From assembly GCF_004118375.1 (NCBI RefSeq), contig NZ_SDHX01000001.1, positions 1,119,693 to 1,183,692 of the forward strand: 64,000 bases of DNA. The letters run 5' to 3'. The notes beneath the pieces were generated by a model that did no database searches, was not told the origin of the DNA, and worked only from the letters and a program-made list of their open reading frames with translations. The translations under genes were made by a program, and so were the position numbers. Shown here in pieces: positions 4,351 to 24,351 of the stretch; within the stretch, counting starts at the first letter, position 1; each line of letters starts with the position of its first letter. Origin of the DNA: Oleiharenicola lentus (GTDB lineage Bacteria > Verrucomicrobiota > Verrucomicrobiia > Opitutales > Opitutaceae).

Positions 4351-4355
4351 ATCAA

Positions 4356-4408
4356 GGTGGAACCTGCGCTCTGCGCAGGTCTAGCCCGCGCGCAGCGCGG
4401 TCTCCACC
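4356..4408. repeat. Palindromic element with GGTGGA/TCCACC ends
   Basis: This 53-bp element fills most of the ccoP-ccoG gap. It starts GGTGGA and ends TCCACC, and encloses two hairpins in series: ACCTGCGC-tct-GCGCAGGT and then CCGCGC-gca-GCGCGG. A related hairpin with a different stem sequence ends in CTCCACC at 22027-22054. Hairpins with other stems and the same CTCCAC tail occur at 25752-25803, 28616-28641 and 63762-63790. It may act as an mRNA stability or attenuation hairpin between the oxidase genes and ccoG, which is inference. Confidence 0.6.
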
Positions 4409-4422
4409 CGCTCAAACCACGC

Positions 4423-5898
4423 ATGAGCGCCGATCCCAAAGTTCCCACGAATCCCGAACCCTCCCGCCCGCGTCCCGCGTCGCCCTACCGGCCGAGCGTG
4501 GACTCGGTCACGACTATCGCGAGTGACGGTTCGCGGCGCGACATCCATCCGGCCGACGTCCACGGCCGTTTCACCCGGATGCGCCGCTGGAGCGGCTGGG
4601 CGCTGATCGCCTTCTACGTCGCCCTGCCCTGGATTCCGGTCAACGGCTACCCGGCCGTCCTCCTCGACATCGCCGGCAGCCGTTTCCACTTCTTCGGTTT
4701 CACCCTCGCGGCGCAGGATGCCTGGCTGCTGTTCTTCGGCGTGACGGGGCTGGGCTTCGCGCTCTTTTTCCTGACGGCGCTCTTCGGCCGTCTCTGGTGC
4801 GGCTGGGCCTGCCCGCAGACGGTCTATCTCGAGCATGTTTACCGGGTGATCGAACGCTGGATTGACGGCGATGCTCCCGCCCGACGTGCGCTTCAGGCCG
4901 CGCCCCTCACCGCCGGCAAGGCCGGGCGGCGCATCCTCAAGCATGCGCTCTATGCCGTGGCGTCGCTCGTCATCACCCACATATTTCTCAGCTACTTCGT
5001 GAGCCTGCCCGAGGTATGGCAAATGATGCGCGAGGCCCCCCGCGATCACTGGGCGGCCTTCCTCTTCGTCTTCATCGCCGCGGGCATCCTGTATTTCAAT
5101 TTCGCGTGGTTCCGCGAGCAGCTCTGCATCGTGATCTGCCCTTACGGACGCCTGCAGTCGGCGTTGACCGACGACCACTCGATGGTGATCGGCTACGACA
5201 GCAAGCGCGGCGAGCCGCGCGGCAAGCTCGGCACGCCCGATGCCGGCGCCTGCGTGGCCTGCAACCGCTGCGTGCAGGTCTGCCCGACCGGCATCGACAT
5301 CCGTCACGGCCTCCAGCTCGAGTGCATCGGGTGCGCGGCCTGCATCGACGCCTGCGACGAGGTCATGACCAAGGTTCACCGGCCGACGGGCCTCGTGCGC
5401 TACGATTCCTTCATCGGGCTCGACGGCGGTCGCACCCGCTGGATTCGCCCGCGCATCATCGTTTACTTCATCCTGCTGCTCGTCGGCACGGCGGTCGCGA
5501 CCTACGCGTTTTCGACGGTGAAGCCGGCGAACTTCCTCGTCTATCGCATGAGCGGCGCGGCCTATTTCGTGAGCCCCGGCGACGTGCGGAACCAGTTCAT
5601 GGTGCGGCTGCTGAACAAACGCACCGAGCCGGCCACGTTTGTGGTCTCGACCGAAGGCGTTCCCGCCGGGGTTCAGCAAAGCGGCTTCACCGCGCCGGTC
5701 ACCCTCGGGCCGCTCGCCGAGTCGGTCAGTCCGCTGGTGCTGATTGTGGACCGCAAGCACTACACCGGTCCGTTCCACTTTACCGTCCGGGTCGAAGACT
5801 CGGCTCACACCTACCAACTCTCGCGCGCCGTGGAATTCATGGGGCCCGAGCCGAAACTGCTAGAGGAGGAAGACCGTGAAAAAGGCGTCCAGCGTTGA
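4423..5898 (+). CDS. ccoG: cbb3 oxidase assembly ferredoxin-type membrane protein CcoG (RdxA/FixG)
   Basis: A 491-residue polytopic membrane protein with two [4Fe-4S] motifs, the first beginning at C277 (C-V-A-C-N-R-C-V-Q-V-C-P) and the second at E-C-I-G-C-A-A-C-I-D-A-C. The N-terminal membrane region contains W-C-G-W-A-C-P-Q-T-V-Y, typical of CcoG, and the C-terminus is an IgG-like periplasmic domain. CcoG reduces Cu(II) to Cu(I) for cbb3 copper-centre maturation. The start at 4423 follows a CcoG-like unstructured N-terminus; the longer open frame upstream is derived from the palindromic element. Confidence 0.93.
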   Translation: MSADPKVPTNPEPSRPRPASPYRPSVDSVTTIASDGSRRDIHPADVHGRFTRMRRWSGWALIAFYVALPWIPVNGYPAVLLDIAGSRFHFFGFTLAAQDAWLLFFGVTGLGFALFFLTALFGRLWCGWACPQTVYLEHVYRVIERWIDGDAPARRALQAAPLTAGKAGRRILKHALYAVASLVITHIFLSYFVSLPEVWQMMREAPRDHWAAFLFVFIAAGILYFNFAWFREQLCIVICPYGRLQSALTDDHSMVIGYDSKRGEPRGKLGTPDAGACVACNRCVQVCPTGIDIRHGLQLECIGCAACIDACDEVMTKVHRPTGLVRYDSFIGLDGGRTRWIRPRIIVYFILLLVGTAVATYAFSTVKPANFLVYRMSGAAYFVSPGDVRNQFMVRLLNKRTEPATFVVSTEGVPAGVQQSGFTAPVTLGPLAESVSPLVLIVDRKHYTGPFHFTVRVEDSAHTYQLSRAVEFMGPEPKLLEEEDREKGVQR

Positions 5899-6130
5899 GA
5901 CGGGGATCACTCCTTGTAGGGTCGCCGCTGGCGGCGACCTTGAGGGCTCGCTTCCGGGGGCGGCGCAAGCACCGACCCGACAAAAGGCGCAGAAGACGGC
6001 ATGGTCCCTCTGGCTTTGGGTCGCCGCCGGCTTCCTGTTTCTCGGGGTGCTGTGGACGGTGCTGTTCATCGCCTCGCGGCGGATCGACACACGCACGGTG
6101 CCGCTCGCAACCCAGGAGGCGAAGCCATGA
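5876..6130 (+). CDS. Short single-TM protein of the cbb3 locus (CcoH position)
   Basis: An 84-residue protein with one TM helix (about residues 43-66). The GTG start at 5876 is preceded by a strong AGGAGGA and overlaps the end of ccoG by 23 bp, so translational coupling is likely. The position between ccoG and the TauE-like gene suggests a reduced CcoH/FixH-type assembly factor, but the usual periplasmic domain is missing. Residues about 13-23 are encoded by the palindromic element at 5914-5943, so part of this N-terminus seems to come from a repeat insertion. Confidence 0.6.
   Translation: MKKASSVETGITPCRVAAGGDLEGSLPGAAQAPTRQKAQKTAWSLWLWVAAGFLFLGVLWTVLFIASRRIDTRTVPLATQEAKP
5914..5943. repeat. 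TTGTAGGG palindromic element inside a gene
   Basis: A 30-bp element starting TTGTAGGG and carrying the hairpin GTCGCCGC-tg-GCGGCGAC. The copy at 21955 has GTCGTCGC-tt-GCGACGAC: one stem position has changed on both arms (C-G to T-A), so pairing is kept. It is read in frame as part of the 5876-6130 protein. Confidence 0.65.
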
Positions 6131-6828
6131 CGCACGAACTGGCCGGCATCACGGGGCCCGTCTCGGCGCTGCTCGCCGGGCTGGTGACCAGCCTGCACTG
6201 CGCCGGCATGTGCGGCCCGCTGGCGTGCTCGGTCATGCCCGCCCGGCGCGATGAGGCCGATCCGCACACGGTGGCGACGGTCTATCATGTCACCCGCCTC
6301 GTCGGCTACTCGCTGCTGGGTGCGCTCGTGGGCGGGATGGGCCGCGTGCCGTTGTCCTTCATCGGCGAGGGCGCTCTGCGCTACCTGCCGTGGTTGCTGG
6401 TGGCGTTCTTTGTCGCTGTCGCCGTGCGCTTCGACCAGCGCCTGCCGCGGCTGCCGGTGATCGGGCGGGCCTATGCGGCCGTCACCCAGCGGCTGCGCGG
6501 CGGTTCGCGGCTCAAGGCCGCGGCCGTGCTGGGACTCGCCACTCCGCTGCTGCCCTGTGGTCCGCTGTATTTTCTGCTGTCGCTCGCGCTGCTGTCGGGT
6601 TCCGCCCTGAATGGCGCCGAGACGCTGCTCGCCTTCGGTCTCGGCACGGTGCCGCTGCTGTGGTTTGCGCAGGCCAACTACCACCTCATCCGCGTGCGCA
6701 TCGGGCCGGTATGGCTCGGCCGCATCCAGACCGCGCTCGCGCTCGTCGTGGCCGCCGTCCTCGTCTGGCGGCTGCGCGGGACACTGGGCCTCGGCGGCCC
6801 GGGGGTGAACGATTTCGTGTGCTTCTGA
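6127..6828 (+). CDS. TauE/SafE-UreH-like membrane protein of the cbb3 locus
   Basis: A 233-residue polytopic membrane protein with six or so TM helices. The first helices carry S-L-H-C-A-G-M-C-G-P, and a second site, L-P-C-G-P-L-Y, opens a later helix. This Cys-Gly-Pro pair is typical of the UreH-type/DsbD-like transmembrane family often called sulfite exporter TauE/SafE, which recurs in cbb3 clusters where it is annotated as CcoH-like or a heavy-metal transporter. A role in copper or thiol handling for oxidase assembly is likely but not proven. ATG at 6127 overlaps the previous gene's stop. Confidence 0.85.
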   Translation: MTHELAGITGPVSALLAGLVTSLHCAGMCGPLACSVMPARRDEADPHTVATVYHVTRLVGYSLLGALVGGMGRVPLSFIGEGALRYLPWLLVAFFVAVAVRFDQRLPRLPVIGRAYAAVTQRLRGGSRLKAAAVLGLATPLLPCGPLYFLLSLALLSGSALNGAETLLAFGLGTVPLLWFAQANYHLIRVRIGPVWLGRIQTALALVVAAVLVWRLRGTLGLGGPGVNDFVCF

Positions 6829-19301: not shown

Positions 19302-21119
19302 TCAGGTCGTCGCTGGCTCGAACAGCGGCAGGATCTGCATGCCGGGCACGGTCACCAGGCCCTTGTCGGTGATGCGGATCTCGGGGATCACGGAGAGCGG
19401 GATGAGGTTGAAGCCCATGTAGGGGAGGGTGCAGCCGGCGGCGCTCCAGGCGGTCTTGAGGGCGGTGGACTCGGCGGCGACGACAGTGGCGCGTTTGTCG
19501 GAAAGCAGGCCGGCGACGGGGAGGGCGACCTTCGCGACGACCTTGCCGCCGCGGATGACGCAGACGCCGCCGCGCATGGCCTTGATGGTTTTAAGCGCGA
19601 GCTGCAGGTCGGCCTCGTTGGTGCCGGCGAGGATGATGTTGTGCGCATCGTGGCCGACCGAGCTGCCGACCGCGCCTTCCTTCAGGCCGAAGTCCTTGAG
19701 CAGGCCGTGGGCGACCTTGCCGGATTTGCCGTGGCGCTCGATGACGGTGACGAAACACAGGCCGTGCTTCGCGAACAGGTCGGACCAAGTCTCGCCGGGC
19801 TGCGGGTTGAGGGCGACCTTCTCGTGGAAGAGGATGATGCCGGGCAGCGCGGTGCGGATGCAGTTGGCCGTGACCGGGCCGGTGGGCAGCGCGGGCGTGA
19901 GCGTGAGCTTCGGCGCGAGCTTCACGGTTTCGTAGGCGGCCTTCGGGTAACGGTAGCGCTTCGAGAGGGCCTTATCGAGGAGCGGCGTGACCTTGCGGTT
20001 CTCGACGACGAGTTCGCCGCCATACCAGGTGTTCTGCGGCACGAGGTCGTCGTTGAGCAGCACGAGGTCGGCGCGACGGGCGGGGCCGAAGCCGCCAATG
20101 TCTCCGTCCTTGGCGTAACGCGTGGCCGGGTGCAGCGAGCCCATGCTCCAGGCGGTGACGGGCTTCATGCCGTGCTTCACGGCCTCGCGCACGACCCAGT
20201 CCATGCCGAACAGGAAAAGATCGTCGGCGTCGCGATCGTCAGTGCAGACACACACGCGCTTAGGGTGGGCGCCGAGTTCGGTGACGGTCTTGATGGCCTG
20301 GGGCAGCGAGTGCCAGGGCGTGGTCGGCGGACCGCCGCGGAGGAACACCCATACGCCGTTCTCGAGAAAGTCATCGGCGATGTCGCGGTCGATGGCTTCG
20401 TGGGTGTCGTTGATGCCGCTGGCGGCACCGGCCGCGACAAATTCGCGACCGTAGATGTGGCCGCAGACGGGCTTGCCGCGCTTGATCGCCTCGGCGAGGA
20501 CGCCGTGGCTGCGTTTGTCGCCCATGGCGACCTGCACGAAATCCATCTTCTCGCCCAGCGCGACGGCCTCGGGCCACTTGTCGAAGAGTTTGCCGATCTT
20601 CGCGGGCGTCAGGTCGCCGCCGGCGGTCTCGAAGAACGCCGACGTGGCCGGCACGGTGCTGGGGACCGTCAGGAAGATGTTGAGCGGGGCCTGCCGGGCG
20701 TCGCGCAGCATCCACTCGATGCCCGCGGCGTCGCAGACGTTGCCGATCTCATGACTGTCGCAGAAGATGGTGGTCGTGCCGTTGAGCAACGCACCTTCGG
20801 CGTAGGCGCAGGCGGTCATCATCGAGCTCTCGATGTGGATGTGCGGGTCCACGAGACCGGGGGCGAGCAGGCCGCCGCGCACGTCGTAGAGTTTGGTTTT
20901 GTCCTTCGGGCCGGCCTTGAACGTGCCGGCAGGTTTCACCACGGCGATGCGGCCGGATTTGATCCAGACCTCGCGGTTCTCGTGAATGCGCTCGGTGTAG
21001 GTGGAAAGAATGCGGGCACCGGTGATGACGAGGTCGGGCGCCTTGCGCCCCATGGCAACGGCAGCCAGCGAGCGGGTGACGGTGTGCAGCGGCGGGACGG
21101 AGAAGCGGGTGAGGGGCAT
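19302..21119 (-). CDS. ade: Adenine deaminase
   Basis: A 605-residue amidohydrolase converting adenine to hypoxanthine and ammonia in purine salvage. The metal-binding motif P-H-I-H-I-E-S-S follows the amidohydrolase G-L-V-D segment, with S-H-E-I-G-N-V next; these are characteristic of AdeC rather than AMP or adenosine deaminases. Length matches the family (about 570-600). The ATG at 21119 is the first Met near the domain start; the longer open frame upstream runs into a palindromic repeat. It is followed by the YdiJ-like gene's 3' end on the same strand, with no obvious functional link. Confidence 0.9.
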
Positions 21120-21170
21120 AGTGGCAGGATAGACAGGAGCAGCGCCGATGCCAGCCCGGGAATTTCTTGA

Positions 21171-21218
21171 GTAGGACCGGTCTTCGACCGGTCGCGGCCA
21201 GTCACAGACTGTCCCTAC
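21171..21218. repeat. GTAGG/CCCTAC palindromic element at a gene end
   Basis: A 48-bp element bounded by GTAGGAC and GTCCCTAC, with two hairpins: GACCGGTC-ttc-GACCGGTC and a CAGTC/GACTG stem. The stop codon of the YdiJ-like gene (TAG on the minus strand, 21215-21217) lies inside its CCCTAC end, so the element supplies the termination codon. Confidence 0.6.
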
Positions 21219-24200
21219 CTCAGCGCCTCGTGCAGAATCTCCACCGGGTGCAGCGCGATCCGGCCGGTACCGTCGAGGATCTGATGACGGCAGCTGGTGC
21301 CGGGCGCAGCGATGACGACCTCTGGGGCGGCGGAGCGTACGGCGGGGAAGAGCACGAGTTCGCCGACCTGCTGGGAAACGGCGAAGTGCTCCGCCTCGTA
21401 GCCGAAGGACCCGGCCATGCCGCAGCAACCGCTGGGGATGACCGATACCTTGTGACCGGCCGGCAGTTGCAGCATTTTCACGGTCGGAGCGACGGAGGAC
21501 AGGGCCTTTTGGTGGCAGTGGCCATGAAGCTTGATCGTGCGTTCCGTGGCGCGGAACTGTTCCGGCCGGATGCGGCCGGCCTCGGCTTCGCGGGCGATGA
21601 ACTCGTCTATCATCAGGGCGTGCTTCGCGAGCGTGCGCGCGGCGTCTTTCAGGGAAGCGGGCACGAGGTCGGGGTATTCGTCGCGGAAGCCGAGGATGGC
21701 CGACGGCTCGATGCCGATGAGCGGGGCCTCGGCGGTGACGACGTCCTTGAGCAGCTCGACGTTGCGGATGGCGAGACGCTGGGCGTCGCGCACGAGGCCC
21801 TTCGACAGATGGGCCCGGCCACTCTCAACCTGCGCGGGAAGGACGACCTCGTAGCCAAGCCGTTCGAGGAGCTGCACCGCCTTGATCCCGACAGTGGCGT
21901 CGGTGGTGTCGGTGAATTCGTCGCAGAAGAGGTGGACGCGGCGGGGGCGATCCTTTGTAGGGTCGTCGCTTGCGACGACCTGGTTCGAGGGCGAGGTCGG
22001 CCCAAGGGCCGACCCTACAAGAGAACCGAGCCCGCGCTCCGCGCGGGCTCCACCTTGCGCCATCCACTTCCGCAGCGTGGTCGCCGGCAGGGTGGGCAGG
22101 CTGCGCTGCCGGGCGAAGCCGGTGAAATCCTTGATCCAACGCGAAACATCGGGCGCGGTGACGATCCAGTTGTAGAGCGCCGGAACCAGCGTGGCCCAGC
22201 GCATGGAGGCGCTGTAGCCGGCGACAATCCGCGAACGCAGCGGCACGCCGTGGGCATCGTGGTAGTGTTGCTGCCACTCGGCCTTGAGGCGGGTGACGTC
22301 CACATTCGAGGGGCACTCGGATTTGCAGGCTTTGCAGGAAAGGCACAGGGCCATGACCTCCTTCACCTGCTGGCTGTCCCACGCGTTCATGCCCTCGCGC
22401 GCATTGGTCAGGACCTGGCGCAACAGGTTGGCGCGGGCGCGCGTCGTGTCCTGCTCGTTGCGCGTGGCCATGTAGCTCGGGCACATGGTGCCGCCCATGA
22501 GGTGGGACTTGCGGCACTCGCCGACACCGTTGCACTTCTCGGCAGCGCGGAGCACGCCCTGGGAGGCGCTGAAGTCGAATACAGTCTTATAGTCCGGCGT
22601 CGGGTGGTCCGGGCCGTGCCGCAGGGCCGTGTCCATCGGCGGCGTATCGATGATCTTGCCCGGATTGAAAATGTTGGCCGGATCGAAGACCGACTTGATG
22701 CGGCGCATGAGCGCGTAGCATTCCGGGCCGACCATGAAGGGGATGAACTCGCCGCGCAGGCGGCCGTCGCCGTGCTCACCGGAGAGGGAGCCGCGATATT
22801 TTTTCACGAGCGCGGCCACGTCGGTGGCGATGCCGCGGAACATCCGCAGTCCCTCCGCCGTCTTGAGGTCGAAGAGCGGGCGGGTGTGCAGCTCGCCGGC
22901 GCCGGCGTGGGCGTAATAGACGCTGCTGATGCCGTATTTCTCGCGCAGCAATGCGTCGAACTCGGCGATGTAGGCGGGCAGATCCTCGACGGCGACAGCG
23001 GTGTCTTCGACGACCTCGCGCGGCTTGGCGTCGCCCGGCACGTTCATCATCAGGCCCTGGCCCGCGCGGCGCAGGTCCCACACGCGGTTGCAGTCCTCGC
23101 CCCAGAGCACGGGAAAGGCGTAGCCGAGCCCGGCGGCGCGCAGCTCCGCTTCGAGCGTGCGCATCGTGGCCTCGATGGTGGCGCGGTCGGCATGGCGCAC
23201 CTCAATGACGAGCACGGCTCCCGGGTCGCCCTGCACGAAGAAGCGGTTGCGCGCCTGCTCGAGGTTGGCCTTGGTGCATTCGAGGATGTGGCGGTCGATC
23301 AGTTCGCAGCCAAAGGGCCGGTGCCGCATCGCGATGAGCGTGGCCTTGAGCGAATCGTGCACGCTGGCGAAATGGGCGCACATGAGCGCGCCGGGCGGCG
23401 GCAGCAGCTCAACGTTCAGCTCGAACTCCACGCCAACGAAGAGCGTGCCCTCGGAGCCGGCCAGGAGCTGGCAGAGGTTGAAGGGCCGGTCGGACGCCGG
23501 GTCGAACACGTGGCACGTCATCAGCCGGTCGAGCGCGTAGCCGGTATTGCGGCGCGTGACGGCGGGCTTCGGATAGTGGTCGCGGATGAGCTGGCGGTTG
23601 CCGGCGTCGCCGAGCACGGCCCGGACCTCGCGGTAGATTCTGGTTTCGAGCGTGTCGGGTCCGGCGCACTTGGCCGCGAATTCCGCCGCTGTCAGAGGAC
23701 CGAAGGTGGCCTCCGATCCATCACTCAGGTAGCCGCGCGCGGAGATGAGGTGTTCCCGCGTGGTGCCGTGGACGATGGAGTTGGCGCCGCAGGAATTGTT
23801 GCCGACCATGCCCCCGATCATCGCGCGGTTGGCCGTGGAGGTCTCGGGGGTGAAGAACAGGCCGTGCGGCTGAAGGAACAGGTTGAGTTCATTGCGCACG
23901 ACGCCCGGTTGCACCCGCACGCGGCGAGTGCTGCGATCGAAGGAGACGATCTGGTTGAGATGCCGGCCGAGGTCCACGACGATGCCGCTGCCGACGACCT
24001 GGCCCGCCAGCGAAGTGCCGGCCGTGCGGGGGATGAGGCCGATCCGGTGTTGCGCCGCGAAGCGCACCAGTTCGCGCACGTCCGCCTCGGTGCGGGGCAG
24101 GGCGACGGCCAGCGGCAGTTCCTGGTATTCGGAAGCGTCGGTCGCGTAGAGTGCGCGCATCGTCCGTCCCATGTGCAGCGCGCCGGTGAGGCGGGCGGCG

Positions 24201-24232
24201 AGGGCGGAGAGGTCGGGAGGCGTTGCGATCAT
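21215..24232 (-). CDS. FAD-linked oxidase/Fe-S dehydrogenase, YdiJ-like (candidate D-2-hydroxyglutarate dehydrogenase)
   Basis: A 1005-residue protein. The order is: FAD-binding type 4 domain ([16 protein letters not shown]), GlcD-type C-terminal cap, a [4Fe-4S] segment (C-N-G-V-G-E-C-R-K, then [12 protein letters not shown]), and a CCG-type cysteine-rich domain (H-G-H-C-H-Q-K and S-G-C-C-G-M-A-G). This architecture and length match E. coli YdiJ, described as a D-2-hydroxyglutarate dehydrogenase; D-lactate or glycolate remain possible substrates. It is divergent from the lysine-degradation genes. About 30 residues between the Fe-S and CCG parts are encoded by two palindromic repeats (21955-22054). 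Confidence 0.85.
21955..22020. repeat. TTGTAGGG...CCCTACAA element, 66 bp, in frame within a gene
   Basis: Bounded by TTGTAGGGTCG (21955-21965) and its exact inverse CGACCCTACAA (22010-22020). It contains GTCGTCGC-tt-GCGACGAC and a second hairpin, GGTCGGCCC-aa-GGGCCGACC. The length is 66 bp, exactly 22 codons, and it is read through without a stop in the minus-strand dehydrogenase gene. Confidence 0.75.
22027..22054. repeat. GAGCCCGCGC hairpin with CTCCACC tail, in frame within a gene
   Basis: The hairpin GAGCCCGCGC-tcc-GCGCGGGCTC is followed by CACC, 6 bp after the previous element. It resembles the unit at 4356-4408 with a longer stem. It is also translated within the dehydrogenase gene. 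Confidence 0.6.
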
Positions 24233-24351
24233 CTGGACTGATAGAACACGAAGCAGCGAAGCAGCAAAGGCCAAAGCCGCGCCCGCTTCGGCCCAAAAAA
24301 TCTTGGTTAATCGCGCCGGACCTTTATGACACACGCAACAAAACTTACCCC
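24233..24351. promoter_or_regulatory. Divergent promoter region of the lysine-degradation locus
   Basis: 119 bp between two divergent start codons. It must hold promoters for both the YdiJ-like gene and the VOC-fold gene, so both units are probably controlled together. No convincing -35/-10 pair or operator palindrome could be fixed by eye. Confidence 0.4.

Follow-up and report, generated by a model that had tools for sequence, protein, structure and literature searches.

An in-frame REPIN in a dehydrogenase gene of Oleiharenicola lentus, at a protein linker where related species carry other REP families

Two palindromic elements lie inside the coding sequence of a YdiJ-like dehydrogenase gene of Oleiharenicola lentus, and the locus raises the question of what these elements are and how a gene comes to carry them. 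The features of interest in the window, i.e., the whole analyzed stretch of 64,000 nucleotides of contig NZ_SDHX01000001.1, are the following.

21215-24232, minus strand: gene of the YdiJ-like FAD/Fe-S dehydrogenase; likely ATG at 24230-24232, stop TAG at 21215-21217
21171-21218: GTAG-tipped inverted pair, recognized from sequence (half at 21196-21218), whose tip is the TAG stop of the dehydrogenase gene
21955-22020: family-A REPIN, in frame, 66 bp or 22 codons, about residues 737-759 of 1004
21957-21980, plus strand: family-A REP half, GTAG with a 9-bp stem and a TT loop; the same 24-mer is found at 8 places in the genome
21995-22018, minus strand: family-A REP half, GGCCC subvariant
22028-22054, minus strand: single family-B REP (GGTGGAGCCCGCGCGGAGCGCGGGCTC), about residues 726-734
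5916-5981: the other family-A REPIN of the window; it lies at the end of ORF 4351-5895 and overlaps the start of the open frame 5944-6825
4382-4408: family-B-like half within the upstream part of ORF 4351-5895 and ahead of a likely ATG; this ORF thus has REP material at both ends

The element at 21955-22020 is a REPIN of two inverted GTAG REPs, beside a half element of a second REP family. The first-pass annotation of this DNA had described a 66-bp element of 22 codons with perfect inverted ends, and indeed 11-bp ends (TTGTAGGGTCG and CGACCCTACAA) bound it at these positions. In the repeat search, the inverted arms were 21955-21981 and 21994-22020, with 85% complementarity. The two REP halves stand in opposite orientation with 14 nt between them and a tip-to-tip length of 62 nt, a family-A half being GTAG followed by a GGTCGTCGC-TT-GCGACGACC-like hairpin. 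The second hairpin was also found (stem at 22028-22050, 10 pairs, loop of 3), but its stem starts 7 bp from the 66-bp element and not 6 bp as had been described. Both palindromes are read without a stop, as claimed, minus-strand ORF 21215-24334 being uninterrupted, and the pair at 21171-21218 does supply the stop codon of the gene, its GTAG tip giving the TAG at 21215-21217. The RNA of the minus strand at 21935-22070 was predicted to fold stably (z of -3.87; none of 200 shuffles equally stable). A promoter search found none, a terminator-like match at the second hairpin was near chance (1 found versus 0.6 expected), and an Rfam scan of 20500-23000 (E ≤ 1) gave no family at the element and one subthreshold CRISPR repeat match elsewhere. 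Within the window, GTAGGGACAG from the pair at 21171-21218 occurred once, and TGTAGGGTCG had four matches at one mismatch, as many as were reached by 18 of 100 shuffles; TGTAGGGTCG thus is no commoner in the window than by chance, and the signal lies in the genome-wide copies.

In the own genome (4.71 Mb, two contigs), the 24-nt family-A half-site had 37 and 33 matches on the two strands at up to three mismatches, and the reversed control had none. The second hairpin, which belongs to family B, had 26 matches on each strand versus 1 for the control, but it is a palindrome, so that one site may count on both strands. REPs are extragenic by name, and these families show the features of GTAG REPs and REPINs: a GTAG tip with a hairpin, inverted pairs with a short spacer, and many dispersed, mostly extragenic copies. 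We examined 61 family-A elements around known copies, of which 41 were pairs and 20 were singles; 28 of the 40 pairs listed were 58 nt long, with a spacer of mostly 10 nt in pairs other than the window copy. Compensating changes keep the stem. Among 60 distinct family-A halves, stem pair 10-19 was G-C in 25, C-G in 17, and T-A in 8, stem pair 12-17 was G-C in 43 and C-G in 10, and each stem position was paired in 47 to 57 halves. In a census that excluded repeats of the same site and elements less than 200 bases from the end of a locus, the same open frame lay on both flanks of 6 of 61 family-A and 5 of 22 family-B elements, as judged by a codon model and not by annotation. After reading, four family-A sites were truly in genes (those for the YdiJ-like protein, RecD2, XdhA, and an Rsm22-like protein), as were three family-B sites (the YdiJ-like gene and those for a DUF2264 protein and a GH2 enzyme). 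The family-A candidates in L011 (2461) and L020 and the family-B candidates in L196 and at 4382 of the window had an in-frame score, yet a likely start codon follows each of them, and they were rejected as in-gene copies.

The reading frame of the host gene is open up to 24334, and its product matched the Pfam models FAD_binding_4, FAD-oxidase_C, and Fer4. The NCBIfam model for YdiJ (NF049975) scored 578 bits, below its cutoff of 1350, and GlpC models, also below cutoff, covered the C-terminal part; the label CCG domain for this part stands for GlpC similarity and cysteine motifs judged by eye. The family-A REPIN and the family-B half both are read in frame in the linker before the GlpC/CCG-like part. 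Solved structures of relatives (E ≤ 1e-10) covered the FAD part only, and therefore we used an AlphaFold model, built from 35 sequences. Its mean pLDDT was 88.3, and the sole segment below 50 was residues 733-759, which is the stretch coded by the REPIN together with the last residues of the family-B stretch. With the inserts, the linker would carry some 30 extra residues, predicted to be disordered.

Among 252 genomes from the bacterial family, the gene was present at E ≤ 1e-40 in 84, and the linker was read in 85 gene copies from these 84 genomes. Fifty-six linkers were compact (42 to 57 nt) and lacked the segment, while 29 were enlarged (72 to 237 nt), and all 85 were stop free and a multiple of three in length. 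Long linkers made up 16 of 19 in genus g1, 6 of 9 in g40, 2 of 4 in g2, 2 of 2 in g28, 1 of 3 in g22, 1 of 2 in g4, and 1 of 1 in g8. Compact linkers predominate in outgroup genera and other phyla; in 80 loci from other genomes, 77 linkers were readable, 67 of these were 57 nt or shorter, and the peptide of the window was absent from all 77. No distant orthologue with the same peptide in unrelated codons, which would have spoken against insertion, thus was seen, and the comparison supports the first-pass suggestion that the segment was inserted in frame. The compact linkers did not fold better than shuffles (mean z of 0.26, none of 56 below -2), in contrast to the enlarged ones (mean z of -2.32), of which 15 of 29 were below -2 and the other 14 were not significantly folded; the enlarged linker of G090 folded worse than its own shuffles (z of 1.62). 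The flanks GLGG-P and FPHG are common to long linkers of several genera. We also observed two classes of linker, one PPSLAYPNG-like and the other TG...FPHG-like and often carrying GLGG-P; which of the two a species has switches between sisters and does not follow the tree of the flanks.

Two orthologues from Bacteroidetes were examined further. In L371, from an uncultured member of this group, the linker is 186 nt long with a RHSELVSES-like peptide and a hairpin-forming repeat (z of -2.86 for its first 139 to 140 nt), so the same linker may be filled by a different hairpin-forming insert in another phylum. L363 is similar by eye, but it had a z of 0.38 over the first 139 nt and was not kept as a hairpin insert; its protein has TPEGG...GGL-type segments at two places, one in the FAD part and one within the linker, which may stem from another repeat family.

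We assigned 21 of the 29 long linkers by eye to eight REP families and left 8 unsorted; the first-pass annotation had passed over the other REP families in this linker in other species.

Family A: G000, G168, and a degenerate form in G163
Family B: G167 and G166; half in G000
Family C: G162, G154, G040, and G091
Family D: G068 and G027; half in G089
Family E: G170, G152, and G095
Family F: G090, G092, and G164
Family G: G160 and G165
Family H: G037

Families A, B, C, D, F, and H have dispersed copies in the same or a related genome; none were found for E and G among the loci searched. Six listed genomes had 17 to 91 copies of the family-C core, other genomes had 0 to 3, and the family-D core had 0 to 297 copies per genome, with none in G092 and G040. 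In a search of other loci from 11 genomes for further copies of the REP tips of the linkers, second copies were found for F (G164), for H (G037, where two of four matches were the same linker as contained in another locus), for A (G168), and, weakly, for C. Matches for the tip of G153 were at the level of the G153 control, and no second copies were found in the other loci of G170, G160, G165, G166, and G167. Four C-like REPs that surround a RAYT gene in G154 (L228) were set aside, because they resemble Pseudomonas REPs and may be contamination of this metagenome-assembled genome.

A protein tree of the linker flanks, in which 36 of 82 inner branches were well supported, placed different linker states side by side (support as ultrafast bootstrap/SH-aLRT).

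G168 (A) and G161 (compact), 100/98
G154 (C) and G158 (compact), 100/97
G000 (A and B) and G167 (B), 100/99
G040 and G091 (C) and G092 (F), 100/93; the compact G094 adjoins, 100/99
G152 (E) and G027 (D), 100/97
G068 (D) and G021 (compact), 98/95

Excluding the 8 enlarged linkers that could not be sorted, this tree requires no fewer than 20 changes in family state and no fewer than 12 in presence.

RecD2, XdhA, and the Rsm22-like protein were chosen solely for their family-A copy in the own genome, and these three sites and that of the YdiJ-like gene were compared within the own genus (21 genomes, 70 linkers read). Enlarged linkers were found in 10 of 19 RecD2, 10 of 13 XdhA, 11 of 19 Rsm22-like, and 16 of 19 YdiJ-like genes, and each of the three additional sites carried several different palindromes. 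Only 1 of the 70 linkers was out of frame, a 101-nt linker with a REP remnant in XdhA of the draft genome G154. The two parts of this gene (L288/L290) lie in different frames, which could be either a frameshift made by the REPIN or a draft error.

Genes with the Y1_Tnp domain were found in 16 of the 21 genomes of the genus. The own genome has four, one of which was above the cutoff of NF047646 REP_Tyr_transpos (87.4 versus 80 bits), and recognized family-A REPs adjoined none of the four. In the congener G168, a RAYT-like gene adjoins recD2 and is flanked by family-A REPs in opposite orientation; it carries one in-frame stop and for that reason may be dead, and its closest relative in the own genome had 35% identity over 77 amino acids. 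In G162 and G165, RAYT-like genes are bracketed by GTAG-type REPs that differ in sequence from family A. Under stricter automatic criteria, flanking pairs were seen at 6 of 32 Y1_Tnp loci, including one with an unrelated repeat in the own genome (L062). Over the four sites, the 40 enlarged linkers from genomes with Y1_Tnp had a mean z of -2.98, with 22 below -2, while the 7 from genomes in which no Y1_Tnp was detected had a mean z of 0.03, with none below -2. This contrast is only suggestive of a loss of hairpins in the latter, because the 7 linkers come essentially from one clade (three of the genomes G155, G156, G169, and G171) and two of the genomes are incomplete (G155, 69%; G156, 80%).

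The reading that we prefer, with a probability of roughly 80%, is that REPINs land often and that only stop-free, frame-keeping copies in disordered linkers survive, to erode or be replaced later. REPINs are nonautonomous and probably moved by RAYT (Y1, REP-associated tyrosine) transposases, and most copies are intergenic. A copy within a gene would be translated and nearly neutral, and it would persist only with its frame kept, without a stop, and at a site tolerant of extra residues, here presumably the flexible linker before the GlpC/CCG-like part. The same linkers would be struck repeatedly in different species by whichever REP family is active, because tolerant sites in a genome are few and REPINs are many, and the inserts later would erode, vanish, or be overlaid by new ones. 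Recurrence could instead reflect insertion preference, with a transposase that prefers a target sequence or hairpin. All four sites examined did show strong recurrence, and next to the family-A REPIN of G000 lies a family-B half, at a place where the closely related G167 carries a family-B REPIN, which would fit an attraction of REPs to REPs. However, eight families share one site, the four genes have no obvious common target motif by eye, and no fewer than three of the four sites fall between domains or at the protein surface according to what is known of the protein families, and we consider target preference improbable. It appears very unlikely that the hairpins serve the host through an RNA structure that slows ribosomes at the domain border or tunes mRNA stability: the folds at this border are very stable and one coincides with the terminator-like match, but the 56 compact orthologues and close sisters do without the structure, and the clade without Y1_Tnp has not kept it.

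Independent insertion alone leaves the shared GLGG-P and FPHG flanks unexplained, and these speak for a single old insertion whose sequence later changed through gene conversion or recombination among REP families and among species. GLGG-P or a close form precedes the REPIN in the long linkers of G168, G154, G170, G027, and G152, many long linkers across genera end in FPHG while sisters have compact PPSLAYPNG-like linkers, and the nonsisters G000 and G168 share a family-A insert with a similar spacer. In contrast, the linkers of G168 and G161 are wholly unrelated while their 60-bp flanks show 91% identity on one side and 98% on the other, so that no long foreign tract is apparent; G154/G158 and G092/G094 show a similar pattern. 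Together with the mostly compact linkers of outgroup genera and other phyla, this makes an old insertion quite improbable. A native linker, or palindromes that arose by chance in GC-rich coding DNA, might be thought of in a GC-rich genome with linkers that vary anyway, but 70 copies versus none for the reversed control and the absence of the segment from orthologues refute this. Extending the preferred reading of repeated landing and selective survival, we tentatively suggest that such linkers are standing refuges for REPINs of several families, perhaps in several phyla, with turnover on the time scale of species and selection for translatability. All four in-gene family-A copies use the GTA (Val-Gly-Ser) frame, even though no stop closes the GT-AGG frame, and for this reason mobile palindromes may keep supplying proteins with new linker sequence.

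Taken alone, the element is an ordinary REPIN, and REPs read in frame were already on record for this group of bacteria. The accessible parts of Di Nocera (2013; PMC3733652) report intragenic GTAG REPs, most of them in Opitutus terrae (Verrucomicrobia), GTAG tips that serve as stop codons, and intragenic pairs that code for 20 to 30 residues; they propose, as a guess, that linkers tolerate REPs, and they mention that, in two Xanthomonas species, recB carries different REPs at roughly the same position. An in-gene palindrome in another phylum, as pointed out in the first-pass annotation, is therefore not new. Its comparison with the Rickettsia palindromic elements (known here through PMC3733652) holds for the way of working, as both are palindromic, lie in frame in ORFs, and add a peptide, but the present element belongs to another phylum and is set apart by its RAYT-type GTAG architecture. 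With the GTAG REPs and REPINs with RAYTs, as described in the accessible parts of PMC3733652 and of Bertels and Rainey (2011; PMC3116915), it shares the GTAG tip, the hairpin, inverted pairs, dispersal, a mostly extragenic location with some copies in frame within ORFs, and the tip as a stop codon; added here are eight families that replace one another at one linker, sister contrasts, several genes, and possible erosion where no Y1_Tnp was found. MITEs within enterobacterial and other genes, so far as covered by the available parts of PMC2759123 and PMC10969869, also are small nonautonomous repeats read as peptide but have terminal repeats with target duplication, while the linkers around the insert are too diverged for a clean empty site, and no target-site duplication was demonstrated at the linkers compared. 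In the literature covered (mostly open-access articles), several REP families at one linker were not reported beyond the recB note in PMC3733652. We thus found no description of the extent of recurrence seen here, nor of unrelated families that take one another's place again and again at a single linker, in different species and at several genes. Should a few linkers in every genome go on catching REPs, short selfish palindromes would steadily feed disordered sequence into housekeeping enzymes, sister alleles with and without an insert would be a natural experiment on the insertions that proteins tolerate, and REPIN activity, along with its decay after transposase loss, could be measured on the set of tolerant sites.

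RecD2 showed additional variation. At a second variable site, REP-like palindromes or halves were seen in L247, L249, L250, L251, and L254. Open frames of 922 to 1156 amino acids, versus 795, were found in G165 (L258/L265), G160 (L259/L270), G167 (L260/L275), and G171 (L263/L272), and in G165 about 1 kb of additional open frame near query residues 380-391, by the P-loop, is possibly an intein.
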